A model generated the notes under the pieces. The model did no database searches and was not told the origin of the DNA. It saw only the letters and a program-made list of their open reading frames with translations. From IMG/VR virus record IMGVR_UViG_3300032156_001313, positions 1 to 21,669 of that record: a stretch of 21,669 nt of DNA, one strand, 5' to 3'. This DNA comes from a virus. The stretch's first letter is position 1; the number at the start of each line of letters is the position of its first letter. Below, one piece after another: positions 4,333-20,168 of this stretch. The position numbers and the translations under genes were made by a program.

Positions 4333-4427
4333 GTTTTCTTTTTCTCCTGTGAGGGGGTTAAAGGTTAACGCTTGATTGTTGCGTTGTCTACCCCTTTCGA
4401 TTACCCTTTTGTTAAAGGAGGTGTGTA
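4333..4427. promoter_or_regulatory. Divergent control region between the 356-aa gene and the sigma factor gene
   Basis: A 95-base gap separates two divergently transcribed genes, so it most likely holds promoters for both. It contains the ribosome binding sites of both genes: AAAGGAGG for the sigma gene at 4414-4421, and AGGAG on the reverse strand near 4344-4348. Weak sigma-70-like elements exist, such as TTGCGT (4379-4384), 17 bases, then TACCCT (4402-4407) on the plus strand, but each matches consensus at only about half of its positions. GTTAAAGG occurs twice, near 4357 and at 4411. The promoter class is undecided, and recognition by the phage's own sigma factor is possible. Confidence 0.4.
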
Positions 4428-5456
4428 ATGGAGAACTTTTTCGAAAGTCGTACCTTTCGAAGTTATTACGACGACGTCGGTAAACACAAAGTACTCACAC
4501 CGGCACGAGAACAAGAACTTTTGTTACGTTATAAAAGTTGTCCGAAATGTTCTCGTAGACTTCCTCACCTTGTGAAAGTTAATAATTGTCCCATATGTGG
4601 TACTCCTACTTCAAAGCGTGTCATAGGTAAAGCCACTACTTGTACCGAATGTAATGCCCGTTTTGATGCTTTTGCTCCTCCTGTGTGTTGTATTTTTTGT
4701 GGTTCACCAAGAGATTCTAGAGCCAGGGAAGAATTGATAGTCTCTAATCTTCGCTTTGTTGTAACTACTGCTAAGAAGTTATCTAAATCTCCTGAGATAA
4801 TTCAAAAGCTTATATCCGCTGGTAATGTAGGGTTATTGGTAGCATTAGACAAATTTGATATGGCGAGGGCTACTCGATTCTTAACTTATGCTTCTTGGTG
4901 GATTCGTAAAGAAATGTTGGATGAATTACACGCGAGCGGAATTGTTCATGTCCCTTCTCATAAACAAAAAGCAGTGAAAAAAAGTCAGAAACTTGGAGCT
5001 TATGAGTGTATTCATTGCGGTGTTAGGACAGATAATCCATTACGCACACTACAACCTAAATGTGTAAAGGTTGGAAGAAAACGTAGGATGCATGATTTTA
5101 TAATGGTTAACGCAGAAGAGATAACAACGATGTCTTCTATAGTTCCATTAGAAGAAGCAATGAACCGGCCCGATACTGATGACAATCTAGAAGACCTTAC
5201 GATTAGTAACAATAATGCTATCCTGTTACGTAAGGTCTTGAATGAAATGCCCATACGAGCTCGTGACCGGTTCATTCTCCTGCAGTACTACAACATTGCT
5301 CAGGATGAGAGAAAGACGGAGCCGAAAACTCTCCCACAACTTGCTGCTGTTACTGGGGTTACCGTAGAACGAGTACGCCAGGTAAAGCTCGTGGTGCTAA
5401 AGAATTTACGGCGTCAATTGGTGGAGAAAAGCTCAGATGCCGCTGCGGTAGGTTAG
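4428..5456 (+). CDS. Sigma-70-family RNA polymerase sigma factor with inserted zinc ribbons
   Basis: A 342-residue protein with a recognisable sigma-70 backbone. Residues 22-36 (LTPAREQELLLRYK) match region 1.2. Residues 99-168 match regions 2.1-2.4, including NLRFVVTTAKKLS, AGNVGLLVALDKFD and FLTYASWWIRKEM. Residues 262-332 match region 4 with a helix-turn-helix at 301-329. The backbone is interrupted between regions 1.2 and 2.1 by Cys pairs C38-x2-C41, C54-x2-C57, C72-x2-C75 and C88-x2-C91, which is two zinc ribbons. A third partial cluster, C194-x2-C197 with C212 and perhaps H222, sits where region 3 should be. Sigma factors bind the core polymerase and recognise promoters. This one presumably serves the phage polymerase encoded at 14319. 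AAAGGAGG lies 6 bases before the ATG. The stop codon interlocks with that of the convergent ParB-like gene. The family assignment is firm; core specificity is inferred. Confidence 0.92.
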   Translation: MENFFESRTFRSYYDDVGKHKVLTPAREQELLLRYKSCPKCSRRLPHLVKVNNCPICGTPTSKRVIGKATTCTECNARFDAFAPPVCCIFCGSPRDSRAREELIVSNLRFVVTTAKKLSKSPEIIQKLISAGNVGLLVALDKFDMARATRFLTYASWWIRKEMLDELHASGIVHVPSHKQKAVKKSQKLGAYECIHCGVRTDNPLRTLQPKCVKVGRKRRMHDFIMVNAEEITTMSSIVPLEEAMNRPDTDDNLEDLTISNNNAILLRKVLNEMPIRARDRFILLQYYNIAQDERKTEPKTLPQLAAVTGVTVERVRQVKLVVLKNLRRQLVEKSSDAAAVG

Positions 5457-6472
5457 AAGGTGTCGCGGATTCCACTCAGGCGTTCCATCCCAACGAGGAT
5501 GCCCTTGTAGTAATTGACGCGGTCTTTGGTGTTCGCTGACTCGTACAGCTCTTTGGCTTCAGCAAAGATTTCCTTTGTTTTGCTGGGAGATACGAGCTTG
5601 AGGCTCAAGCTGGAATAGTCCTTGAGCTTGTCCTTTTTCTTGGTAGGACGGCCAGCCTTCTTCTTGTCGTTCTTTGCCCCGGCAGCCTTGGCTTTTTCGG
5701 CCTTCTTGTCGAGGTAATGAATGATTGCGTTCTCCGTGTCCTCAGGAGTCCAATCGTTCTCAACGGTGGCGTCGAAGACGCGAGCATAGAACTTCATGTC
5801 TTCTTCTGTGAAGACACGCAACAGCGCACGCAAATGAGCGAACTTCAGTTTCTCAGTCCGAGCGTACTTGATGGCGTCAGATGGGAGTTTGAGAATGGCG
5901 AGATGTTGTGACACAAAGGCGTCACTCTTTCCGCACGCAGCCGAGATGTCCTTCTGCTTCTTCCCGGAATCGATAGCATACTGAAATCCTTCAGCAATCT
6001 CTATCGGATTGTGGCCTTCACGTGCCAGGTTGGTCAGCATTGACGTGAGGAACGCATCGGCATCGTTGCTGTCATCCGTGAAGGTCACGAATGCTTCTTT
6101 GATACCGGCTTCTTGAAGAGCCGTGAAACGTCGACGACCGTCAACCAAAATAACCTTGCTGGGATCGTTGGGGTCTACACGAACAACGAGTGCGACCTTT
6201 TGTCCGACTGATTTGATGGACTGTACGAGACCTTTGATGTCGCCAATCTTGTCCCGGTTATACTTGTCTGGGAGATTGATGTCTTTAAGATTGATGCTGA
6301 AGTTACGTACGCTCTTAAGGGCTCCGTTTCCAGTTTTCTTTTCAGAAGAAGCTTTCGCTTTCTTTTCCTTCTTAGAGATATCTTCTACGGGTGCCAGCTC
6401 GGGTTCTATCTCAGGAATGTTCGTTGGGTTTTCTTCGTCCGCAAGTGTCTCTATCGGTTCTGTTTCGAACAT
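5453..6472 (-). CDS. ParB/Srx-fold protein (ParB-like partition or DNA-binding protein)
   Basis: A 339-residue protein. After a charged, probably disordered head (1-55), residues 58-165 form a ParB N-terminal-like domain with DGRRRFTALQEAG at 111-123 and NLAREGHNPIEIAEG at 148-162. These correspond to the nucleotide-contacting GxRR box and the arginine box of ParB proteins. A helix-turn-helix segment follows (171-195, KKQKDISAACGKSDAFVSQH). Residues 260-290 are a Lys-rich linker and the C-terminus is helical. ParB proteins bind specific centromere-like sites and are CTP switches; phage members act in partition, silencing or transcription control. No ParA ATPase gene is seen here. This is the last gene of the long minus-strand operon. 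The start has AAGGAG 7 bases upstream, and the TAA overlaps the TAG of the convergent sigma gene. Base composition is clearly higher in GC than that of the SNF2 gene in the same operon. Confidence 0.85.
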   Translation of the reverse strand: MFETEPIETLADEENPTNIPEIEPELAPVEDISKKEKKAKASSEKKTGNGALKSVRNFSINLKDINLPDKYNRDKIGDIKGLVQSIKSVGQKVALVVRVDPNDPSKVILVDGRRRFTALQEAGIKEAFVTFTDDSNDADAFLTSMLTNLAREGHNPIEIAEGFQYAIDSGKKQKDISAACGKSDAFVSQHLAILKLPSDAIKYARTEKLKFAHLRALLRVFTEEDMKFYARVFDATVENDWTPEDTENAIIHYLDKKAEKAKAAGAKNDKKKAGRPTKKKDKLKDYSSLSLKLVSPSKTKEIFAEAKELYESANTKDRVNYYKGILVGMERLSGIRDTF

Positions 6473-6892: not shown

Positions 6893-7312
6893 TCAGTTTG
6901 CCGTTGCTTCTCGGGCTCTGTCAGCTTCGATTTCTGCCTTGGTCCGGCGCTTACGCTTCGGGGCTTCTTCGCCGTCTTCCGTCTTTCTCTCCGGAGCCTC
7001 GTGTTTGATGCGGAACATTATGTCCTCAACCAGGTACTTTACGCGAGCTTTGCAGCCCTTGTTGCGCTTGCCGTCGAGCTCACACAGGTTGTCGAGGGTC
7101 TCAATGTTATATTCGCCATCTTCGTTCTTGATGCAAATGATGGCATCGGGAAGAAGCTTTGTGTCAAAATCACGGATTGCCGTGGTGAGCTCCGCGAGAG
7201 CACCCATTTTTTCTTTATCACCAGACACGATTTCGCTTGCGCGCTCGAGGCTGACAGTCGCTTCGTTCTTACGGCCACAACGCCCACAGTTGGTTTCGAT
7301 CTTTACGTCCAT
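6893..7312 (-). CDS. Hypothetical 139-aa Cys-containing protein with basic tail
   Basis: I choose the ATG at 7312 because GGAGG lies 8 bases before it. An in-frame ATG at 7348 would sit inside the endolysin gene without such a site. The N-terminus holds C9-x2-C12, followed by C60, C77 and C87, so a zinc ribbon built from C9, C12, C77 and C87 is possible. The middle looks helical with some beta strands (TKLLPDAIICIKNEDGEYNI). The last 25 residues are strongly charged (APKRKRRTKAEIEADR), a basic arm of the kind that contacts nucleic acid. No family is recognised. The SD overlaps the stop codon of the upstream endolysin gene, and its own stop lies within the ribosome site of the 51-aa gene, so the genes are co-translated. 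Confidence 0.7.
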   Translation of the reverse strand: MDVKIETNCGRCGRKNEATVSLERASEIVSGDKEKMGALAELTTAIRDFDTKLLPDAIICIKNEDGEYNIETLDNLCELDGKRNKGCKARVKYLVEDIMFRIKHEAPERKTEDGEEAPKRKRRTKAEIEADRAREATAN

Positions 7313-7317
7313 GTTTT

Positions 7318-8520
7318 TTACCTCCAGTTGATACTGTCTTTTTCGCATTGCTGGCTTGCTTCCAACAATGCCTTTGTTGTTAGGGGACCTAGGATACCAT
7401 CGACTTTCAATTCAGTCTCTGGAGCAAGATCCATTTTTTTGTGGTTCCAAGCTGCCTGGAACATTTGCACTGCTTGTTTGAACGCACGGTCATAGATTGT
7501 CGTAGCCCCACTCGTGAAGCCGAGATTATCTAAGTGGGGTTTTGCTTCTACCACAGAGAGAACGTACTTTTCGTAGTCTACTTCATCTTCATCGTGTGTA
7601 GGGCTCTTTACGCCGTATTCAGGGCTGTCCTCGTTCTTTTCGAAAGCATTCGAATGGTCTTCCAACTTCTCTGGCTTGCCAAGCGGAGAATTTTCAAAAC
7701 TTTGAACGATATGCAGTTGGTTAACAGGGAACATTCCTTCGTTAAAGGCACCAGCGTTACATTCCTCGAAGGGCCACAGTGGACCCATATCGGATTTGCC
7801 TGTGCGCCAATCAGAATGCTGAGACATACGCAACGGAGAGATGCGCTCTCCAAGGGCCATTTTTACCAGTCTCTTAATGAGTATGTTGTTAAGGATTTGG
7901 TCGAGAGTAAAAGGTTGGAGGTACTCAGCGCCTTTGTATGGGGGAGTAACTGCCGTAGGCGGGAGTTCGTTGAGCAGATTAAGAGGAACCTCTCCCGCCC
8001 AATACGCCCAATTTCCCCTATCATTCCTATGGAGTCGACCAGCGTTGACTGTTTCGATGCTGATACCGTCTCTGTTCTTTCGAGGTTCGTGCCAAGCTCC
8101 ATTAACCAAAGATACGAGGTAGAGAGGGTCTCCGTGATGGTCTTGAACGAAGTGAGTTGACGCTCCGTTAAATTTGCCATTAGAATTCTTTCTGGAACTA
8201 AACCAATTCACCGTTGACCACGCGTTTATGCCAGCGGTGTAATGGTCCACCCACCAAAGGTCCTGTACGTTCGTGAGAATATCTTTATAACACTGCTGTG
8301 TAGGAAAGAATTTCTCTAGCCCTTTAGCCTGGATACGTTGATGGGAATAAACGAATAAATCATTTAGAACTTTTTGAGCGTCTTCAGCTTTTAGAACTTT
8401 TCCGTTTCCCACTTTTTCCCACGCGAGCAAGAAACGCTGGTGTGCTGCGTCTCCTGTGAGCTTGACGAGGGACCAAAAGTCCTTTGGAGCCATGGTGTTA
8501 TAGTTCACAATGAAGGTCAT
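7318..8520 (-). CDS. Endolysin: N-acetylmuramoyl-L-alanine amidase with C-terminal peptidoglycan-binding domain
   Basis: A 400-residue protein. Residues about 75-260 are an Amidase_2 (PGRP-like) zinc amidase: H93 in WWVDHYTAG is the first ligand, and H235 (QHSDW) with D244 (KSDMGP) give the other two. The segment WHEPRKNRDGISIE at 143-156 matches the substrate-cleft region of this family. A charged linker (about 280-320) leads to a PG_binding_1-like domain at 326-390, ending with VDGILGPLTTKALLEA. The enzyme should cleave the amide bond between N-acetylmuramic acid and L-alanine in cell-wall peptidoglycan at lysis. No signal peptide is visible, so export would need a holin, which is not identified here. 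The ATG overlaps the stop of the upstream nuclease as ATGA, with AGAGG just ahead. The first 75 residues are of unknown role. Confidence 0.9.
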   Translation of the reverse strand: MTFIVNYNTMAPKDFWSLVKLTGDAAHQRFLLAWEKVGNGKVLKAEDAQKVLNDLFVYSHQRIQAKGLEKFFPTQQCYKDILTNVQDLWWVDHYTAGINAWSTVNWFSSRKNSNGKFNGASTHFVQDHHGDPLYLVSLVNGAWHEPRKNRDGISIETVNAGRLHRNDRGNWAYWAGEVPLNLLNELPPTAVTPPYKGAEYLQPFTLDQILNNILIKRLVKMALGERISPLRMSQHSDWRTGKSDMGPLWPFEECNAGAFNEGMFPVNQLHIVQSFENSPLGKPEKLEDHSNAFEKNEDSPEYGVKSPTHDEDEVDYEKYVLSVVEAKPHLDNLGFTSGATTIYDRAFKQAVQMFQAAWNHKKMDLAPETELKVDGILGPLTTKALLEASQQCEKDSINWR

Positions 8521-9789: not shown

Positions 9790-11877
9790 TTACTCCTTTG
9801 TAGCTACAGTACCTTTTTGCGGTGTTGTGGGCAACAGTGTTGGGCGTGTTACCATTCTGTCTGCGGAAGCAGAATACTTACATAATGTTGACCAAGGTTC
9901 TATTTCTTTAGATATACACAGCGAATAATTCTCACAGAGAAGACAGTCCATTTTTGTCGTTAGCATTTTTCCAATGTCTTGACGGTTGGACAGAGCTATG
10001 AGTTGTTGTTGCTCCACGGTATGCGCTCCAACTAAGCGATAAACCACTGTTTTCTCTTTTTGACCAATACGGAAGTTACGAGCTCGGGATTGAAACCAAG
10101 CATCAGGAGACCAAGGACGGCTGTAATAAATTGAGTATTGTGCGGCAGTAAGCGTGATTGCTATGCCTGTGTTAACTTGGCCTAAATAAACACGGGTATA
10201 TTTTCCATTTTGAAAAAGGTCTTCAAAATGTTTTATATGCTTAGTATTAGACCCATCAACACGAACATAACTATATTTGCACCGTTTCAATAAATCTTCG
10301 ATATGATTGAGTTCGGCAGAAAAATGTGCCCATATAATAACCTTATTCTTTTCATTATTTAGTATGTCTTCAAGCAGGTCTTCTAGCGCATTCAACTTAG
10401 GATTTTGCTTATAAACTATCACAGGAGGTATTGGTTCTGTTTTTAATGCATCTTTAATACATTCAATGTCTCCAGGAATTATACCAGCTTCAAAACAAAC
10501 TTGTAACGAGGGACAGCGGTCACAGGAGGCAGTTTTATCTTCTTTTGGTGTGTAATAAAAACCACTACAAATCTGTAACAATTTGTTAATTCGAATTGAA
10601 CCTTGAGATAAATCTATCTTGCCTCCTTCTCCTTCCAAAGAAAATTCTTTGACTGCTTTGTTATAATCCTTTGTTTGTTCCGCGCTTAAGTAATATAAAA
10701 GGTCTTGGTCTCGTTGCTTTGGTAATTGAATGCAGTCTAACAATTTACGTTCGCTTGAAACAGAATTAACACGTGCATTTATGATGTGTAAATTTTTATA
10801 CCCCGTTACAACATGTTCATTCCATTTAGCATGTTCACAGAATTTTCGAATAAAGGAAAACCATTGTTCAGGCATTAGGGCGGGATGAAGAATTTTTAGC
10901 TGTGAGTAGAAATCTCGTGGGTCTCCGATAGTAGGTGTTCCAGACAGCATATAACGTCGAGTGGCTTTTTCGGATAAGAGTGTAATGATTTTAGTCCTTT
11001 GACTCTTTATACTTTTTACTCTATGTGCCTCATCGAGGACTAAAACTTTGAAATCTAAAGAAGAGAGAAATGGAGGAGTTGTACCAACGATTTTAGTTAT
11101 TTCCTCGTCGATCTGTTTTGCTGTTAACTTTCCGGCGTAATATGAGGACAAGTAATAAACTTGCTGTTTTTCGTCTGAGAGAGTCGCAATTTTATCTATT
11201 ATATGCATATGCGTAGGTGTACTACCCATACGCTCTTTCTTCCTTAGTTCAGCAGCTGAAGAACATAGAACAGGGACACCATAAAGACGAGCAGTATCGT
11301 AAGACACAATAACGATATCTTTATTAAAGGCTTCAATAATTTTCTTTTCTTTTTGTTTGGCTGTACCTGTGACGGAGATAGTAGATAGCCTACCGGAAGA
11401 ATGTATATCGGTTTCTCGTATCCAAGTGTCAACTGCAATAAGTGGACAAATAACAAGAGCTTTTTCTCGTAGATATTGCAAGGCGTCAATAACAACCTTC
11501 GTCTTTCCCGTCCCCATCTCCCATCTGAGGTACCAGCGATAATATGTAAGTAATTCTGCGGTTCCGACAATTTGATGCTCGTAGCTATCGTATTTTCCGC
11601 CCGTAGGATGCTCATGGACGAAAGTAGTCCAGTACTCCAAGGATTTCCCATTATCTTTAGCTTTCTGTTCTTCTTCAGGTAAAAGAGCGTCTTTATCTAT
11701 TTCCTTAATATCACGTATAACATTAGCTAAAAAAGGAGGGTATCCTGGAAATATCCACGCCTTGTGTGTTGTAGCGTATTGACTTCCAAACACACGTCCC
11801 CAAGAGTCATGCGGTCCTCCTCGCACAAAGAATGCAGGTGTTCCACCGATTTTGATGAATTTCATTTTGTTTTCCAC
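9790..11877 (-). CDS. SNF2-family superfamily 2 helicase/translocase with two Cys clusters
   Basis: Taking the GTG at 11877 (AAAGGA 7 bases upstream), the protein has 695 residues; an ATG at 11865 is the alternative. Helicase motifs are complete: MGTGKT at 121-126, DEAH at 282-285, SGTP at 312-315, the motif V region LGQVNTGIAITLTAAQ at 565-580 and QSRARNFRIGQ at 596-606, a SNF2-type motif VI. Such enzymes use ATP to translocate on duplex DNA and remodel bound proteins. Two extra cysteine clusters are present: C452-x2-C455-x5-C461 with C473 between the RecA lobes, and C645-x2-C648-x5-C654 with C666 after the motor. These could bind zinc or iron-sulfur. It is the first gene of an eight-gene minus-strand operon, and its start lies 32 bases from the divergent portal gene. 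Its AT content is among the highest in the window. Confidence 0.9.
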   Translation of the reverse strand: MENKMKFIKIGGTPAFFVRGGPHDSWGRVFGSQYATTHKAWIFPGYPPFLANVIRDIKEIDKDALLPEEEQKAKDNGKSLEYWTTFVHEHPTGGKYDSYEHQIVGTAELLTYYRWYLRWEMGTGKTKVVIDALQYLREKALVICPLIAVDTWIRETDIHSSGRLSTISVTGTAKQKEKKIIEAFNKDIVIVSYDTARLYGVPVLCSSAAELRKKERMGSTPTHMHIIDKIATLSDEKQQVYYLSSYYAGKLTAKQIDEEITKIVGTTPPFLSSLDFKVLVLDEAHRVKSIKSQRTKIITLLSEKATRRYMLSGTPTIGDPRDFYSQLKILHPALMPEQWFSFIRKFCEHAKWNEHVVTGYKNLHIINARVNSVSSERKLLDCIQLPKQRDQDLLYYLSAEQTKDYNKAVKEFSLEGEGGKIDLSQGSIRINKLLQICSGFYYTPKEDKTASCDRCPSLQVCFEAGIIPGDIECIKDALKTEPIPPVIVYKQNPKLNALEDLLEDILNNEKNKVIIWAHFSAELNHIEDLLKRCKYSYVRVDGSNTKHIKHFEDLFQNGKYTRVYLGQVNTGIAITLTAAQYSIYYSRPWSPDAWFQSRARNFRIGQKEKTVVYRLVGAHTVEQQQLIALSNRQDIGKMLTTKMDCLLCENYSLCISKEIEPWSTLCKYSASADRMVTRPTLLPTTPQKGTVATKE

Positions 11878-11909
11878 TACACTATCCTTTCTAAAGACTG
11901 GAGGTCTTG

Positions 11910-13634
11910 ATGACGACTGATACCATGAGGTTGTTCGACCCCTACCACGGGGGCATGGATGGGACGCATTCAAATCCTTACTATCAGTACTCGCAGCTCT
12001 ACACGCCGAAACGGCTCAAAGAACTGTTCGTCTGGTGTGAGTATCTCTTCTACCAAAGTCCTCATATATTTGCGGCTTTGCGTAAATTCGGCGAATACCC
12101 AATCACCAAGATTACGTATGAAACGGTCAACGAACACCTCAAGCAGCGGCATAAAGATTTGTTGGAGAAAACTCTCCGCGTAAGGGAGTTTCTTATTAAA
12201 GCTTCTTTAGACAAACATGTCTACGGTAATAGCTTTGTTTCTATGTACCAACCTTTTGTTCGGTACTTGAAATGCACGAAATGCGGGGCTCTCACTAACA
12301 TCAAAAACACTTCATATACCTTTGATGTTACCAATCTAAAGTTCACCTACTCCTGCCAGTCTTGCAAAAGTAAAGTCACAGTCTCTGAAGACCAAATTGA
12401 AGATAGAAAGTTACTCCTCAGTAAGGGAATTAATTTCATTCGTTGGGACGCCAAAGATATAGATATTGACCACAATCCTTTAACTGGTGAATCCGAATAC
12501 TATTATAAAATCCCACAGCAAGTTGTGAGTCGTGTCAATTCGGGGCATAAAACGTTGATTGATACGATGCCTATTGGCTTCTTGAAAGCCATTAAGGCAC
12601 GTAAACCTTTTAAGTTTGCACGAGACGCTATTTTCCATATGAAGGTTGGAGCTCCTGCTGGCATAAATCCTCAGTGGGGATTGCCTCCTATCTTAGCGGC
12701 GTTGGAACGCTTTCACTTCACACAGATTCTGAGAAAGGCTAACGAGGCGATTGCGCTTGATTATTTGGTACCATTCCGTGTTCTCCACCCTTCTCAATCA
12801 TCTGGAGTCGCTGACCCCGTACAGCAAATTAGCCTCACGAAGTGGAAAGACGAGCTCGACCTCAACCTTCGATTACACCGTAAAGATCCCCTACATATCA
12901 TGTACGCCCCAATCCCGGTGGGCATGGTTCAAATTGGTGGTCAAGGACGCGCACTGCTCACCTTGGGAGAGATTCAAGAAGCTGAGAAGAGTATCGTAGC
13001 TACACTAGGAATTCCTATGGAGTTCTTGTATGGAGGACTCACTGGGCGAGGAATGGAAGCCACTCTTAGGATGATTGAGAATCAGCTCTCAACACACATT
13101 GCGGACATCGTTGACCTTATGCAGTGGATTGATGATAAGTGCTCAGAATTCCTTGGTTGGGAAAAAATAACTCTTGGTCTTACACCCTTTCGTATGGTGG
13201 ATGATTTTGAGAAACAACAACTCATTTATAACGTGTGGCAGTCTGGTAAACAGACAGGTTCACAGGTTATTTCAGACACTACGATGTGTGAAATTTTCGA
13301 GATAGACCCTCTCCGAGAAGAGACACGTATTAAAGAAGAGACCTTACGCGGTGTTCGTATTAGTAATTCTTTGCAGATTGAGATGCAAAAGCAGCAAAAC
13401 AACCTCGCTCAGCAATCTCAGCAAGAGGCGTTGCAAGGTCCATCAAATTATAACCAGCAACAGGTTATAGCTAATGCGGACCAAATTGTTAATGAGTTAT
13501 CCCAAATGGAATACGGCGCTAAAAAGAGTCGTTTACACCAGCTTCAAGTCGAAGACTTTGTGTTGTATTCTGTAGTAGTTCAACGAATGGAACTACAGAA
13601 CCGACAACAGACACAACAAGGTCAAGGGATGTAA
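11910..13634 (+). CDS. Phage portal protein with zinc-ribbon insertion
   Basis: A 574-residue protein. The start is the ATG with GGAGG 5 bases upstream (11900-11904). Portal-like features are KASLDKHVYGNSFVSMYQPF (97-116), the helical PPILAALERFHFTQILRKAN segment and GIPMEFLYGGLTGRG followed by a long helix, a layout common to tailed-phage portals of about 500-600 residues. A zinc ribbon, C122-x2-C125 with C149-x2-C152, interrupts the wing region directly after the HVYGNSF strand. The C-terminal 85 residues are Gln-rich, as in some portal crown or barrel tails. Portals form the dodecameric channel through which DNA enters and leaves the capsid. It heads the plus-strand cluster; the next gene begins immediately after its stop. 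No terminase or capsid gene is in the window to confirm the assignment, which rests on pattern and length. Confidence 0.75.
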   Translation: MTTDTMRLFDPYHGGMDGTHSNPYYQYSQLYTPKRLKELFVWCEYLFYQSPHIFAALRKFGEYPITKITYETVNEHLKQRHKDLLEKTLRVREFLIKASLDKHVYGNSFVSMYQPFVRYLKCTKCGALTNIKNTSYTFDVTNLKFTYSCQSCKSKVTVSEDQIEDRKLLLSKGINFIRWDAKDIDIDHNPLTGESEYYYKIPQQVVSRVNSGHKTLIDTMPIGFLKAIKARKPFKFARDAIFHMKVGAPAGINPQWGLPPILAALERFHFTQILRKANEAIALDYLVPFRVLHPSQSSGVADPVQQISLTKWKDELDLNLRLHRKDPLHIMYAPIPVGMVQIGGQGRALLTLGEIQEAEKSIVATLGIPMEFLYGGLTGRGMEATLRMIENQLSTHIADIVDLMQWIDDKCSEFLGWEKITLGLTPFRMVDDFEKQQLIYNVWQSGKQTGSQVISDTTMCEIFEIDPLREETRIKEETLRGVRISNSLQIEMQKQQNNLAQQSQQEALQGPSNYNQQQVIANADQIVNELSQMEYGAKKSRLHQLQVEDFVLYSVVVQRMELQNRQQTQQGQGM

Positions 13635-14210
13635 ATGAACGAGTTCAATTCTGTGCTTCAATCGCTACAACCACAGCCAAAAGAATTTACAAACGTCTTT
13701 GGTGATAATAAAGGCGGTAACCTTATTAGCCCAAAGACAGCTCCAGAGCACATAGCTGACCCATTAAAGGTTTTGTATTTTTCAAAGGTATTTGTAATCT
13801 GGCAACCTTATGGTGCTTGCCCTCAATGCCATGCTTCTTTCAATTCGGGAGAGTTGGTCCTTCCAGAAGATTCTGTGTATACGTGCCCTCATACAAATAA
13901 TCACGAATACGAAGAGACTATTAATCTCTGTCTTTCTGGCAAGGCGTTGCTGCAGAAACAAGATTTTGTAGACCAGAAAGATGGGACACGTATTGCTCAT
14001 GTTATGTGGCTCATAGTTGACCCTAAGTATGTTGAAGAGCTCAAGAAGAAAAAAGAAGACGCAGCAAAAGATAAAGTATATCCGCCTAACCCGGCTAAAG
14101 TATTCGCGGAAGAAGAGCAGAAATTAAATGCAGGGTCTGTGACAGCTGAATCCACAGACCCTGCCGGAACACAAGTTGAGGCCCTTACAGAAGAAGGAAC
14201 AAGGCTATAA
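13635..14210 (+). CDS. Hypothetical 191-aa Cys/His (probable zinc-binding) protein
   Basis: The ATG follows the portal stop codon without a gap, with AAGGGA just ahead, so it is translated from the same message. Residues 40-125 form a compact domain with C62-x2-C65-H66 and C84-x-H86, H90 and C99, enough ligands for one zinc site. Flanking strands (KVLYFSKVFVIWQPYG, IAHVMWLIVDPKYVEEL) suggest a small beta-rich fold. The C-terminal third is charged, then low-complexity (Thr, Glu, Ala). The family is not recognised. Its position between portal and RNA polymerase could mean a virion or a transcription role, and the sequence does not decide. Confidence 0.7.
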   Translation: MNEFNSVLQSLQPQPKEFTNVFGDNKGGNLISPKTAPEHIADPLKVLYFSKVFVIWQPYGACPQCHASFNSGELVLPEDSVYTCPHTNNHEYEETINLCLSGKALLQKQDFVDQKDGTRIAHVMWLIVDPKYVEELKKKKEDAAKDKVYPPNPAKVFAEEEQKLNAGSVTAESTDPAGTQVEALTEEGTRL

Positions 14211-14273: not shown

Positions 14274-14318
14274 TAGACTTATAACAAAGCTTCTCTTCAT
14301 TTTTTGAAAAGGATGTAC

Positions 14319-17300
14319 ATGCCTACTCCAAATGACATTCAGCCTGTTTTAGTTGATGCCGCGACAAAGCGAGACCACATCCGGCAAAAAGTCATGGAAG
14401 GTATAATGGAGTCCTTCCCCATTAAATCTCGGAGCAAAACAATCGAGATTTCTGATTTGAGTTTTACGAAGAAGGATTACTCTCCATCAGAACAGAAGAA
14501 AGCTATCTTAGAAGGTAACTCTTTATTCGAGCCTATTCATGGAACTATTCGGGTTAAAGATAATGCCACGGGCCAATTAGTAGATGAAGCTAAGAAATTT
14601 ACGTTAGCCAAGATTCCATGGTTCACACCTAGGCATACGCTCATCGTTGGTGGAAACGAGTACTCTGTCTCGAGTATGGTCCGTCCTAAGCCCGGTGTGT
14701 ACGCGCGAAAGAGGGCTAATGGTATCCTAGAAGCTAATTTCAATATGCAAGGTGCAGCTAACTTTAACGTAACTATGGACCCTGAAAAGGGAGAGATGCA
14801 ACTCGAGTATGGTGCGTCAAAGATTCCACTCTATCCAATCTTAACTAGAGTAGGAATAACGCACGAACAGATTGCTGAAAAATGGGGTGATGCTCTCGCT
14901 GAGAAAAATAGACAAATGGCACCTAAGAATATCTCAGGTGTTGTTGACCGTCTTTATAACAAGGTAGTTCCTACTTACGGAAGAGAAGCCTTAAAGCTAA
15001 CAACCCCAGAAGCCAAGATTCAAGAAGTTTTCAATCGATACTCTAAAGCTTATATGAATCCAGACGTTAATAAAGTGACGCTGGGACATCCATATGAAAC
15101 TGTAACACCTAACGCTATTCTTGATGCGTCGCATAAGGTGTTGAAGATTTTTAAGAACAACGATGAAGTTGATGACCGTGATAGTTTGGATTTCAAATCT
15201 CTGTACATGGTGGATGACTTTTTTAAAGAGCGTATAAAGCTCGATGCCCGTGATATTGCGCGTAAAGCAGCCATAAAGATCGAGGCAAAAAAAGAATTAA
15301 AGAACGCTATAGCTTCTGCGCCGTTTACGCCAGGACTCCTTAAGTTTATCAACACATCTCAGCTTGTCTCTGTTCCTACACAGACTAATCCTATGGAGCT
15401 CATTGATTCCTCGATGCGTGTTACGTCTTTGGGTGAAGGCGGTATTAGCTCTGAACGAGCAATTCCCATGGAAGCTCGTATGGTACACCCAACACAGATT
15501 GGAGCTCTCGACCCTATGCGTACGCCAGAATCTTTTAGAGCTGGTGTGGACGTACGTGCTGCTCTTGCCCTTCATAAAGATTCTAAAGGGAATATTTATG
15601 TTCCTCTTGTAAATGTAAAGAAGGGTAAAAAGACAGAGTTTGTTCGGTCTGGTTTAATCCAAACAAGTACTGTGGCGTTTCCTCAGCAAAAACTTGAAGG
15701 GCAAGTTGATGCCCTTGTCAATGGTGTTGTACGGAAAGTACCAGCGTCACAGGTAGACTATCAAATTCCTCATTCCACTTTTATGTACAGCCCAACAACA
15801 AACCTTATTCCGTTCATGGAATCCAGCCAGGGTAATCGTCTTATCATGGGTTCTAAGTATCAAACTCAGGCTCTTTCTCTTGTTGATCGTGATGTGCCTT
15901 GGGTTCAATCGGTGTCGCACACTGGGAAGCCCATGGTTGAAGTTATGGCGCAAATCGTCAATCCTCACGCGCCTTTGGCAGGAACTATTTCCAAAATAGA
16001 CAAAGACTACATTCACATTAAGCCCTCCTTGGGAGGTGAGGTTGTTAAGGTTCATTATGAGACGGATTTTCCTTTGGCAGCGAAATCATTTCTAGACCAC
16101 ACGTTGAAGGTGAAGGTGGGGGATAAGGTGACTGCGGGGCAACAACTTGCAGATTCCAACTATACCAAAGACGGAAAGCTCGCTCTCGGAAAGAACATGT
16201 CAGTGGCGTATATGCCTTATAACGGAGCTAACTCTAATGATGCCATTGTCATCAGCGAAACTGCAGCGAAGAAACTCACGTCTGAAAAAATGTATAAAGT
16301 GGTTATGTCGAGAGACCCCGACATGACTTTTGACAAGAACAAACACCAGGTTTACTACGGACAAAATTACACAAAGGACCACTATAATCTCGTAGATGAA
16401 GAAGGTGTTGTTAAGCCTGGGATGAAACTCAACGCTGGCGACCCAGTCATATTTAGTTTACGAAAATCTCAAATGTCTCCTGATGATGTTCTTTTGGGGC
16501 GTCTTCATAAATCATTAGTGAAGCCTTTCAGAGAGGCATCAGAGACATGGAGTCATCACCATGAAGGTGAGGTTATTGACGTTGTTAAGACAGGTAGCCG
16601 TATCGCTGTAACTATTAAGGTTAAAGAGCCTATGCAGGTCGGGGATAAATTATCTGGAAATTTTGGAGACAAAGGAGTTGTTGCACAAATTATTCCTGAC
16701 GACCACATGATTCAAGACGAGAAAGGTAAACCAATAGATGTTTTGTTAACCTCAGCTGGCGTTGTCTCTCGTATTAATCCTTCCCAGATTTTAGAAGCAG
16801 CGGCTGGAAAAGTTGCAGCTAAAATAGGTAAGCCTATCTTACTTGAGAACTTCTCGGGGAGAGATAACATTCAGTATGTTAAAGACCTATTAAAGAAACA
16901 TGGAGTCAAAGATAAAGAAACTGTCTTTGACCCTATGACAGGAAAGAGCATTCCTAATGTTTTCGTAGGAAACAAATATATCCTTAAAGCTTTCAAGAGC
17001 ACTGATGTCAATTACAGCGCTCGTAACATTGGAAGCTACGATGCCAACATGCAGCCCACTAAGGGCGGCGACATGAGCGCTAAGGGCATCGGTAAGATGG
17101 AGTTCGATGCGCTCGTAGCCCACAACGCACGTAACGTCTTGCTCGAAGCTTCTACTCTCAAGAGCCAAAAGAACGACGAGTTCTGGAAGGCTTTGCAGAT
17201 GGGATTGCCCACACCCCCGCCCAAGACTTCTTTTGCTGCTGATAAGTTTATGAACATGCTTGTAGGTGCTGGTGTCCGTGTTACGCGTGATAACTCTCGA

Positions 17301-20168
17301 ATCGGGCTTGGTCCGCTCACAGACAGTGATATTATGAAAATGTCTGCTGGTGAAATCAAAGAGCCCAAGCTTGTCCGGGCAAAAGACTTGAAGCCTGAGA
17401 AAGACGGCTTGTTCGACCCAGGTGTTACTGGTGGTCTTAAGGGTGACCGTTGGGCGCACATTGAGCTAGCCGAGCCCATTGTAAATCCTCTCTTCGAAGA
17501 CCCGACGAGGAGACTTCTCGGCCTTACAGGTACTGCTCTCTCCAAGATGCTCAGCGAGAAGGGCGGAGCGCATGTGAGGAGAGAGCTCGCCAAAGTTGAC
17601 TTGGACAAAAAGAAAAAAGAGCTCGAAGCTAAAAGCAAAACAGCAAACGGCGCTGATTTAGACGGCATTGTTAAGTCTCTCAAATATATTTCAGCTTTAC
17701 AGAGTAATGGCCTGACTCCTGACAAGGCATACGTTATCTCAAAGATTCCTGTTGTGCCTCCTACAACGCGCCCTGTAGTTCCTGGTAAGGGCGGGCAAGA
17801 GCTCATTTATGGCGACATCAACCCGCTCTACCGAGACCTCTTGTTTGTGAACAACCAGTTCAAAGAGGTAAAGAACGCCGGGACGATGCCATTCGAAGAG
17901 GCCAAGTTACGCCCCATGCTTCACCAGGCTGTGGGTGCTGTGTTCGGTGTGAACGACCCGGTTACTACAAAGTCTGTTGCCCGTGGCCACAAAGGCTTCT
18001 TGACGTACATCGCGGGAGCCGGAAGTCCCAAGTACGGCTTCTTTCAGTCCAAGCTCATGAAGAAGCAGCAGGACATCACAGGCCGAGGGACCATCGTTCC
18101 AGATGCCACTCTAGGTATCGACCAGGTAGGGCTACCGGAAGACATGATTTGGACAATGTACGAGAAGTTTCTGATTCGGCGTTTGGTCCAGCAAGGCTAC
18201 CAGCCCCTTGAAGCCCAGGACATGATTAAGGCACGCCACCCGGCAGCCAAGGAAGCTTTCATGAGGGAAATCAAGGAGCGGCCGGTGATGCTAAACCGCG
18301 CTCCCACTCTACACCGGTACAGTTTAGTGGGCGCTTTTCCTGTACCGACACCCGGTAAAACTATCCGAGTGAATCCCTTTATTGAATCGGGAATGAATGC
18401 AGATTATGACGGTGATTGTGCAGATTGTACCCTAGAATATGCGACTTGTATCAACGGAAAATACGTGCTACAGAGTCTCCACATCGGGGATTTTCCCCAT
18501 AAGAAGGAGACGAAGAAAGTGACTGGAAACAAAGAGCTCTACGAAGTCCCGGCGAATACGTTTGTCTTTGGCTACAGCGAGAAGAACCAGAGGGTGCAGC
18601 TCTGTGCGGTCTCGCACTTCTCAGTCCACCATGACTTGGAAATGGTGAACGCTACGTTAGCTAGCGGAAGGTCCGTGAAGGTTTCCCGAGACCACAGCAT
18701 GTTTGGCATGAACCCTGAGACAGGTGAGCTGTCCCGGTTCAAGGCTGAAGAAGGTATTGGCTGGGGTACACCTAAACCTCGCCGGTTATTTGTAGAACAA
18801 AAGCAAGATTACTTAACCGACCACTGTGATGCTCCTGACCTTGAGAATGTACCCATGGACTTCAACTTAGGCTGGGTACTCGGTGCTTGGGCAGGAGATG
18901 GGTGGGTTGGTCACTCAAACGATAGCCCTAACCAAGTATGTCTCGCAAAGGTTGACCCGCTAGTTAGGCATACGTTTACGCAGCGTATGTTCCGTTATAA
19001 GGAGGACGCGAGTTTACGTGAGTACTCAGCCACACATGATTACGGTGGAGGTGAGTACACTTCCACGAAAATACACATAAACAATACTAAGCTGGCTAAG
19101 TGGTTTTCAGGTGTAACCGAAGGCGTCCGTGGCTCCCATAACAAAAAGCTTCCCAGCTGGTTCATGCACGGTAAAGAAGATTTCTTGTTAGGGCTTATTA
19201 GTGGCCTCCTGGACACAGACGGAACGGTTTGCAGCGTAAAAGCTAAAGCTAAAAAGAACCCCCAGATTATGGCGACGTACCACACGGTGTCCAGAGACCT
19301 CGCGGTGGACGTATCTACGCTGCTGTGCCTCTTGGGAATCAAGTCTCGGATACACCCATACACCAAGAAGGAAAGCACCGAGGAGTACTACCAAGTAGTT
19401 ATTTCAGTGCCTGACTTACAGAAGGTGGCTGGGCAGCTCCAGTGTGCCACGGCGTCAAAGGCTCAAGTTCTCAAAGAACTTTCTAAGACACCGTATGACA
19501 TGAGCGCACCTGAGAACGCTCGGTGGGACATGGTTCCTATCTCAGCACAAACTGCCAAGGCGCTCTCGAAAGCAAATGGAGCGCCTAAAGTAACCAAGAA
19601 CGATGACAGCCCCGAAAACCAACTACGTAAGCAAGTGTCTTGCGCCTATTCGTCTCTTATTCAGGCGGCTAAGAAAAACACCCTTAGCCGAGCAACGCTT
19701 AATGTTCTTCGTGAGCGCCTAGGAGATGACACCGTCAGAGCTATTGGTGGCGAAGCTTGGTTCAAGAACGTCACCAACGAAAACATTCTCTGGGACTTCG
19801 TTGAGACTGTGACTCCCATCCCTGGACGCCACACCGCTTGGGATATCACAGTACCTGACGGCTGTACTTTCATGACTAGCGAGCAAATCGTGGTGTATGA
19901 CACTGTCATGATTCACGCCCCAGTAGGGCTGAACGCCATTGAAGAGGTTAAGAAGATGACAACGTCTAATCTCCTCTACAGTGACAAGTCTCGTAACGAC
20001 CTGCTTGTTGTCCCGCGCATGGAATCGGTAATGGGTATTGCTAACGCCAGCCAACAAGACGAGAAGAATAAACCTGTTCATTACGAAAACAAAGCCGACG
20101 CTATGAAGGACTATTATAGTGGTAAAATTACCCTAGGTACCCGAGTAACGATTGGTGGGAAGAAGTGA
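14319..20168 (+). CDS. Fused RNA polymerase beta and N-terminal beta-prime subunit, interrupted by an intein
   Basis: The ATG at 14319 has AAAAGG 6 bases upstream; upstream in-frame TTG and ATG codons fit less well. The product is 1949 residues before splicing, about 1454 after. Beta-like motifs run in order: GGNEYSVSSMVRPKPGVY (about 110-128), LDPMRTPESFRAG (about 397), AYMPYNGANSNDAIVISE (about 630), QVGDKLSGNFGDKGVV (about 774) and the IGKMEFDALVAHNARN segment (about 922). Beta-prime begins near 995 with DIMKMSAGEIKEPKLVR and KPEKDGLFDPG. It continues through IPVVPPTTRPVV, GRGTIVPDATLGIDQVGLP (about 1254), RPVMLNRAPTLHR (about 1321) and the catalytic NADYDGD at 1360-1366, then a 495-residue intein, then TVMIHAPVG. 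The chain stops near the SGKITLGTRVTI stretch, before the bridge helix and trigger loop. The beta-prime zinc-binding domain is missing. The stop overlaps the next start as GTGA. It must work with a separate C-terminal beta-prime chain and presumably with the sigma encoded at 4428. Confidence 0.95.
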   Translation: MPTPNDIQPVLVDAATKRDHIRQKVMEGIMESFPIKSRSKTIEISDLSFTKKDYSPSEQKKAILEGNSLFEPIHGTIRVKDNATGQLVDEAKKFTLAKIPWFTPRHTLIVGGNEYSVSSMVRPKPGVYARKRANGILEANFNMQGAANFNVTMDPEKGEMQLEYGASKIPLYPILTRVGITHEQIAEKWGDALAEKNRQMAPKNISGVVDRLYNKVVPTYGREALKLTTPEAKIQEVFNRYSKAYMNPDVNKVTLGHPYETVTPNAILDASHKVLKIFKNNDEVDDRDSLDFKSLYMVDDFFKERIKLDARDIARKAAIKIEAKKELKNAIASAPFTPGLLKFINTSQLVSVPTQTNPMELIDSSMRVTSLGEGGISSERAIPMEARMVHPTQIGALDPMRTPESFRAGVDVRAALALHKDSKGNIYVPLVNVKKGKKTEFVRSGLIQTSTVAFPQQKLEGQVDALVNGVVRKVPASQVDYQIPHSTFMYSPTTNLIPFMESSQGNRLIMGSKYQTQALSLVDRDVPWVQSVSHTGKPMVEVMAQIVNPHAPLAGTISKIDKDYIHIKPSLGGEVVKVHYETDFPLAAKSFLDHTLKVKVGDKVTAGQQLADSNYTKDGKLALGKNMSVAYMPYNGANSNDAIVISETAAKKLTSEKMYKVVMSRDPDMTFDKNKHQVYYGQNYTKDHYNLVDEEGVVKPGMKLNAGDPVIFSLRKSQMSPDDVLLGRLHKSLVKPFREASETWSHHHEGEVIDVVKTGSRIAVTIKVKEPMQVGDKLSGNFGDKGVVAQIIPDDHMIQDEKGKPIDVLLTSAGVVSRINPSQILEAAAGKVAAKIGKPILLENFSGRDNIQYVKDLLKKHGVKDKETVFDPMTGKSIPNVFVGNKYILKAFKSTDVNYSARNIGSYDANMQPTKGGDMSAKGIGKMEFDALVAHNARNVLLEASTLKSQKNDEFWKALQMGLPTPPPKTSFAADKFMNMLVGAGVRVTRDNSRIGLGPLTDSDIMKMSAGEIKEPKLVRAKDLKPEKDGLFDPGVTGGLKGDRWAHIELAEPIVNPLFEDPTRRLLGLTGTALSKMLSEKGGAHVRRELAKVDLDKKKKELEAKSKTANGADLDGIVKSLKYISALQSNGLTPDKAYVISKIPVVPPTTRPVVPGKGGQELIYGDINPLYRDLLFVNNQFKEVKNAGTMPFEEAKLRPMLHQAVGAVFGVNDPVTTKSVARGHKGFLTYIAGAGSPKYGFFQSKLMKKQQDITGRGTIVPDATLGIDQVGLPEDMIWTMYEKFLIRRLVQQGYQPLEAQDMIKARHPAAKEAFMREIKERPVMLNRAPTLHRYSLVGAFPVPTPGKTIRVNPFIESGMNADYDGDCADCTLEYATCINGKYVLQSLHIGDFPHKKETKKVTGNKELYEVPANTFVFGYSEKNQRVQLCAVSHFSVHHDLEMVNATLASGRSVKVSRDHSMFGMNPETGELSRFKAEEGIGWGTPKPRRLFVEQKQDYLTDHCDAPDLENVPMDFNLGWVLGAWAGDGWVGHSNDSPNQVCLAKVDPLVRHTFTQRMFRYKEDASLREYSATHDYGGGEYTSTKIHINNTKLAKWFSGVTEGVRGSHNKKLPSWFMHGKEDFLLGLISGLLDTDGTVCSVKAKAKKNPQIMATYHTVSRDLAVDVSTLLCLLGIKSRIHPYTKKESTEEYYQVVISVPDLQKVAGQLQCATASKAQVLKELSKTPYDMSAPENARWDMVPISAQTAKALSKANGAPKVTKNDDSPENQLRKQVSCAYSSLIQAAKKNTLSRATLNVLRERLGDDTVRAIGGEAWFKNVTNENILWDFVETVTPIPGRHTAWDITVPDGCTFMTSEQIVVYDTVMIHAPVGLNAIEEVKKMTTSNLLYSDKSRNDLLVVPRMESVMGIANASQQDEKNKPVHYENKADAMKDYYSGKITLGTRVTIGGKK
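18417..19901 (+). mobile_element. LAGLIDADG homing-endonuclease intein in the RNA polymerase active-site motif
   Basis: An in-frame 495-residue insert between NADYDGD and TVMIHAPVG, which join to match the bacterial NADFDGDQMAVHVP motif. Block A begins with Cys1 (CADCTLEYATCINGKYV) and runs to LHIGD. Block B has VSRDHSMF with the conserved His. Two LAGLIDADG motifs are present, LGWVLGAWAGDGWV and LLGLISGLLDTDGTV, with the helical DLAVDVSTLLCLLGIKSRI expected after the second. Block F/G reads AWDITVPDGCTF followed by IVVYD. The last two residues are Tyr-Asp rather than the usual His-Asn, and the +1 extein residue is Thr. The element should excise itself by protein splicing, and its endonuclease could copy the gene into intein-free alleles. 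Boundaries are set by alignment to the uninterrupted RNA polymerase motif, so they are precise. Splicing activity itself is inferred. Confidence 0.95.

Follow-up and report, generated by a model that had tools for sequence, protein, structure and literature searches.

The segment between regions 1.2 and 2.1 is a known hypervariable site of sigma-70 family proteins, where the sigma70 non-conserved region lies (PMC4598750, PMC7822876), and in Escherichia coli this region contacts the clamp toe of beta' and affects promoter escape (PMC7822876). Sigma-70 factors are also already known as a kind of phage protein. Phages with a multisubunit polymerase of their own have been described from metagenomes as the mReC phages (Weinheimer and Aylward 2020), in a paper whose text makes no mention of a sigma, of a beta/beta' fusion of their own or of inteins. 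Closer still are the phages Arash and Vibrio phage D69, which share with the locus described here both the same fused polymerase and a neighbourhood of helicase, portal and polymerase around the sigma gene (gp196 in Arash). In the Arash virion the polymerase gp206 is the most detected protein (3516 spectra), with gp216 at 1210 and the sigma gp10 at 467 (PMC10585845); gp196 is not named in that paper. Metal-binding cysteine clusters on a sigma factor are found in CorE, CorE2 and OrbS, which are metal sensors of the ECF type with the cluster either beyond region 4 or in the linker.

The stretch of viral DNA analysed here (the window) comprises all 21,669 nucleotides given as positions 1 to 21,669 of IMG/VR record IMGVR_UViG_3300032156_001313, and encodes a sigma factor that shares features with each of these systems. 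Like the group 1 factor RpoD, with which it is homologous in regions 2 and 4, it has an insert at the 1.2/2.1 place, but this insert is of about 55 residues and holds two zinc-ribbon patterns, a Cys cluster stands in for regions 3.0/3.1, and the partner polymerase is without the clamp toe. Arash gp196 and the D69 sigma differ from it in having no Cys pairs and in retaining region 3. As in CorE, CorE2 and OrbS, a Cys metal-binding cluster on the sigma is predicted, yet a Cys-rich domain of their type after region 4 was not found, there being no Cys past residue 212. TFIIB/TFB is an initiation factor that uses a zinc ribbon on its polymerase; the resemblance to the sigma ribbons is one of analogy only, and context and position are different. 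An earlier note on this DNA considered the ribbon site unusual for a sigma-70 protein, which holds in part: the site is the known hypervariable region, and it is the ribbon cargo carried there that looks new. New as well are the third Cys cluster taking over the 3.0/3.1 position and, in relatives, a ribbon within region 2; a literature search of open-access papers returned no account of sigma ribbons at 1.2/2.1, in region 3 or in region 2.

The sigma gene and its cysteine clusters

The gene (4428–5456, plus strand; 342 aa) has an ATG start and a ribosome-binding site, AAGGAGG, at 4415–4421, and its assignment to the sigma-70 family is based on Pfam, phmmer, AlphaFold2 and Foldseek. Region 2 (residues 97–180; 4716–4967) contains the tryptophans W157/W158, has A131 as the equivalent of sigma70 E407, and gives the strongest Pfam match (Sigma70_r2, 48.5 bits against a cut-off of 24, E 7.6e-13); its core-binding and -10 helices were recovered with Pfam, RpoD structures and Foldseek alike. 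The Pfam score for region 4 (residues 275–333; 5250–5426) is 21.3 bits, just below the cut-off of 24.1, but the RpoD alignment covers its helix-turn-helix and the ERVRQ motif is conserved. Region 1.2 (residues 8–36; 4449–4535) also scores below its cut-off (13.4 bits) and is modelled by AlphaFold2 as two helices. RpoD structures are matched with E 7e-17 in an alignment across regions 2 to 4 (phmmer), the full AlphaFold2 model resembles sigma-70 chains in the PDB, and the named Foldseek matches of that model, PDB and viral, are sigma factors and RNAP-related names only. Regions 3.0/3.1 of group 1–3 sigmas were not found, with a Cys cluster instead in group A (the groups are defined below), absent in groups B–E. 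Because ECF sigmas are also without 3.0/3.1, membership of the sigma-70 family stands despite this absence. An acidic linker at about residues 238–262, modelled with low confidence, may be a remnant of region 3.2. The sigma gene is convergent with a gene for a ParB-like protein (5453–6472, minus strand), which overlaps its end by 4 bases.

The insert between regions 1.2 and 2.1 (residues 38–91; 4539–4700, plus strand) contains the four CxxC pairs C38/C41, C54/C57, C72/C75 and C88/C91, which make up two predicted zinc ribbons. A fifth pair, C194/C197, follows region 2.4 and together with C212 and H222 forms a third cluster, C194-x2-C197-x14-C212-x9-H222 (5007–5093, plus strand), in a part modelled with moderate confidence; with C87 these account for all 12 Cys of the protein (38, 41, 54, 57, 72, 75, 87, 88, 91, 194, 197 and 212). 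Five CxxC pairs were reached in none of 20,000 residue shuffles. All eight paired N-terminal Cys are kept without exception across the 15 members aligned from groups A and B, an invariance that extends down to 43% identity among aligned insert-bearing relatives, while C194/C197 are invariant across group A and missing from group B. Synonymous sites are near saturation (pS 0.67–0.79) and non-synonymous differences in the ribbon segment remain low (pN 0.15–0.19), so the insert is under purifying selection, which together with the invariant Cys rules out chance or a frame artefact as the source of the pattern. Residues 31–100 are modelled as an ordered beta-rich module between the helices of regions 1.2 and 2.1, with a block pLDDT of 89–96, and Pfam double-zinc-ribbon models score on the isolated insert in 15 of 15 members, although Foldseek gave no significant fold match for the isolated insert. 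The insert thus has the paired CxxC knuckles and small beta fold of a zinc ribbon, and we infer that the clusters bind zinc.

The reading of regions 1.2, 2 and 4 and of eight Cys in four pairs between 1.2 and 2.1, first made from the letters alone, is upheld by Pfam, phmmer, the shuffles, the alignment and AlphaFold2. The further Cys cluster placed where region 3 belongs is also present, with the refinement that the segment replaced is 3.0/3.1. CxxC pairs occur elsewhere in the window too, in the portal-position ORF (11907–13634), its neighbour (13635–14210), a small ORF (6893–7348) and the helicase (9790–11973), and modules resembling zinc ribbons seem to be numerous in this phage.

The sigma family and its polymerase

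Searches of viral contigs, from which the family series was drawn, recovered proteins with the same inserts, as had been proposed, and the relatives form a graded series. Group A (the window sigma and more than 15 others) combines four CxxC pairs with the third cluster; group B has the four pairs, with invariant Cys, and is missing the third cluster; and group C, also missing that cluster, has two pairs at the same 1.2/2.1 site. Group D has nothing at this site and carries instead a CxxC...CxxC ribbon within region 2, between 2.2 and 2.3. Ribbon-free sigmas comprise group E, several further lineages and the phages Arash and D69. In five sigma ORFs (L049, L050, L052, L060 and L062) the ribbon between 2.2 and 2.3 stands immediately before the -10-melting helix. 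Among cellular sigmas, a scan limited to two short motifs in 84,980 species' genomes found CxxC in one of 58 hits (L220), far from the insert site.

The presumed partner of the window sigma is an RNA polymerase with beta and the N-terminal part of beta' in one ORF of 1954 residues (14304–20168, plus strand), interrupted by a LAGLIDADG intein (18417–19901, plus strand) directly after NADYDGD. The polymerase ORFs of contigs G004, G008, G028 and G032 are also long, with gaps in the match, which suggests inteins at one to several places in different phages. Compared with E. coli, the N-terminal zinc-binding domain of beta' is reduced from 41 to 9 residues in all of the RNAPs aligned and the clamp toe from 43 to 16 residues in groups A, C, D and E, whereas the Arash and D69 beta' keep a longer segment at the clamp toe position; the clamp helices are retained. 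The extein of the window polymerase has zero cysteines. A description of the enzyme as a polymerase without zinc had nevertheless to be given up in part, since the C-terminal part of beta', a separate gene in 24 of the 27 records searched, keeps a Cys cluster in both sequences read.

Sigma and polymerase are inherited together. The fused polymerase is present on 37 of 50 sigma contigs, and of 34 further contigs with the polymerase, 27 carry a sigma of the same family; on three of the remaining seven the expected place of the sigma is at a contig edge close to the polymerase, while four were long enough to show a sigma and had none. Clades of the RNAP tree correspond to the sigma architectures, group B being nested in A at weak nodes, and the same main clades appear in a sigma tree from which the ribbons were left out. 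The docking surface is altered on both sides. The equivalent of sigma70 E407 is Ala in all 34 polymerase-linked sigmas first compared and A in 19, N in 4, S in 1 and E in 1 of 25 further ones, while Glu stands at this position in RpoD, in the readable hits among cellular sigmas and in three sigmas whose contigs are without the fused polymerase. On the polymerase, V, L, A or H occupies the position of beta' R275; this arginine is among three coiled-coil residues at which substitution weakens holoenzyme formation (PMC8321222). Taken together, these sequence data point to pairing of the sigma with the phage core. That the ribbons themselves might change the core partner, as the earlier note had proposed, does not survive: the same polymerase lineage also occurs with sigmas that have no ribbon (those of group E, Arash gp196 and D69) and that share the altered docking residue, so the ribbons are dispensable for use of the fused polymerase, and ribbon number and place simply follow the polymerase tree.

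Promoter motifs and a second sigma

A possible sigma70-like promoter of the sigma gene was recognised by eye at 4379–4407 (plus strand; TTGCGT, a 17-base spacer and TACCCT). The pattern TTGCG(T/C)-17-TAC with TGTC(T/C)A recurs 5' of the sigma gene in several divergent group A members (by eye, unscored), which suggests transcription of the gene by a sigma70-like holoenzyme, of host or virion origin. A different motif, CTATA(A/C)TT, is enriched in the sense upstream regions of groups A–C (33 found against about 1.7 expected, nine contigs); in group D there was 1 against 0.1 expected (two contigs) and in ribbon-free group E 1 against 0.85, which is no enrichment (two contigs). Phylogeny confounds the enrichment, because the motif follows the clades. 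Motifs resembling GGTATAAG dominate group E and are strong in groups C and B too, and group E has a GG-extended -10 unlike the motif of group A. A clean switch with one promoter motif per group was therefore rejected, as GGTATAAG and CTATAMTT overlap across groups. No -35 element was evident in the aligned motif sites. The CTATAMTT sites in contig G010 lie 5' of the polymerase gene and of long tail-like genes; PHROGs yields no function for the genes behind the motifs of this contig. Both motifs recur 5' of genes in G010 (L163–L171), G052 and other group A contigs, and a repeat of CGCGTAAAGA in G041 was rejected as a promoter, being a partial palindrome.

A second sigma, like Arash gp10, is encoded at L098:11892–12596 and by its homologues in most large contigs. 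A gp10-like gene (E <1e-20) is present in 18 of 26 other records, and all contigs of at least 100 kb except G020 have one. The gene neighbourhood of the window sigma resembles that of the other Arash sigma, gp196. Given that most large contigs hold a second sigma which in Arash is a virion protein, the sigma with ribbons is probably the late one that stays out of the virion, a timing we infer from this comparison. The two motif classes might correspond to the two sigmas, with CTATAMTT presumably read by the ribbon sigma, though it could belong to the second. An altered promoter specificity, as suggested earlier, is thus borne out as far as a distinct -10-like motif in clades A–C goes, its assignment to the ribbon sigma being presumptive.

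Proposed roles of the ribbons

The reading we favour, and regard as fairly probable, is that the protein is a non-virion sigma of the phage's own split/fused RNA polymerase in which the ribbons are stabilising zinc-held modules. Early transcription would be started either by a sigma from the virion acting with polymerase or by the host enzyme; the ribbon sigma would be made during infection and then drive later phage genes. Its docking sites would be the beta' clamp helices for region 2 and the beta flap for region 4, with W157/W158 reading a -10-type element that in the window's clade would be CTATA(A/C)TT. The statement that the ribbons adjoin the parts that bind core and read the -10 element, in a phage that encodes a polymerase, proved correct. 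On the upstream/clamp face of the holoenzyme, the two ribbons and the third cluster may form rigid modules held by zinc. There they would most likely stabilise the complex of sigma, core and upstream DNA in a polymerase without the beta' zinc-binding domain and clamp toe. A stronger form, in which zinc modules moved from core to sigma and the ribbons at three sites take over the promoter-complex job of the lost beta' modules, we hold only tentatively. In several lineages ribbons would have been gained, at sites between 1.2 and 2.1, in region 3 or between 2.2 and 2.3, but no strict replacement rule applies, because group E has neither clamp toe nor ribbons, and Arash and D69 have neither the zinc-binding domain nor ribbons.

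A serious rival to this structural role is direct reading of DNA, in which the ribbons and the third cluster would stand in for region 3 and widen promoter recognition in the vicinity of the -10 element or the spacer. The third cluster does occupy the place of the missing 3.0/3.1, and the group A motif is unlike that of group E; however, groups B and C have CTATAMTT on their contigs without the third cluster, and regions 2.3–2.4 vary between groups and could set the specificity, so that we consider this reading improbable. We think it unlikely that the sigma hijacks the host core polymerase, with the ribbons adding host-core contacts or blocking host factors. Phage sigmas are usually held to act on the host core (PMC7598289, PMC7824862), hijacking of it is presumed for those from jumbo phages that have no polymerase, and region 2 of the window sigma is still RpoD-like, but the altered docking residues on both sides and the co-inheritance with the phage polymerase argue against such a role here. 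It is established that sigmas can be controlled by metals through Cys residues (PMC9023288, PMC8999054), yet a metal or redox on/off switch of the CorE, CorE2 and OrbS kind is very unlikely in the window sigma, whose invariant Cys have structural-ribbon spacing in modules that are rigid in the model, whereas the CorE/OrbS-type clusters have short irregular spacings and a different place.

Within one polymerase lineage that is without the core zinc domain, the sigmas form a natural series running from zero to three metal clusters, placed at three positions, and the roles of the beta' zinc-binding domain and of the sigma non-conserved region can therefore be asked of it. The series also opens up sigma–core co-evolution and the use of two sigmas on one self-encoded polymerase, which in Arash is packed in the virion, and the cultivable relatives Arash and Vibrio phage D69 make part of the question testable now. 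The ribbon sigma and the stripped-down polymerase found with it offer a natural test of rebuilt promoter-recognition machinery.
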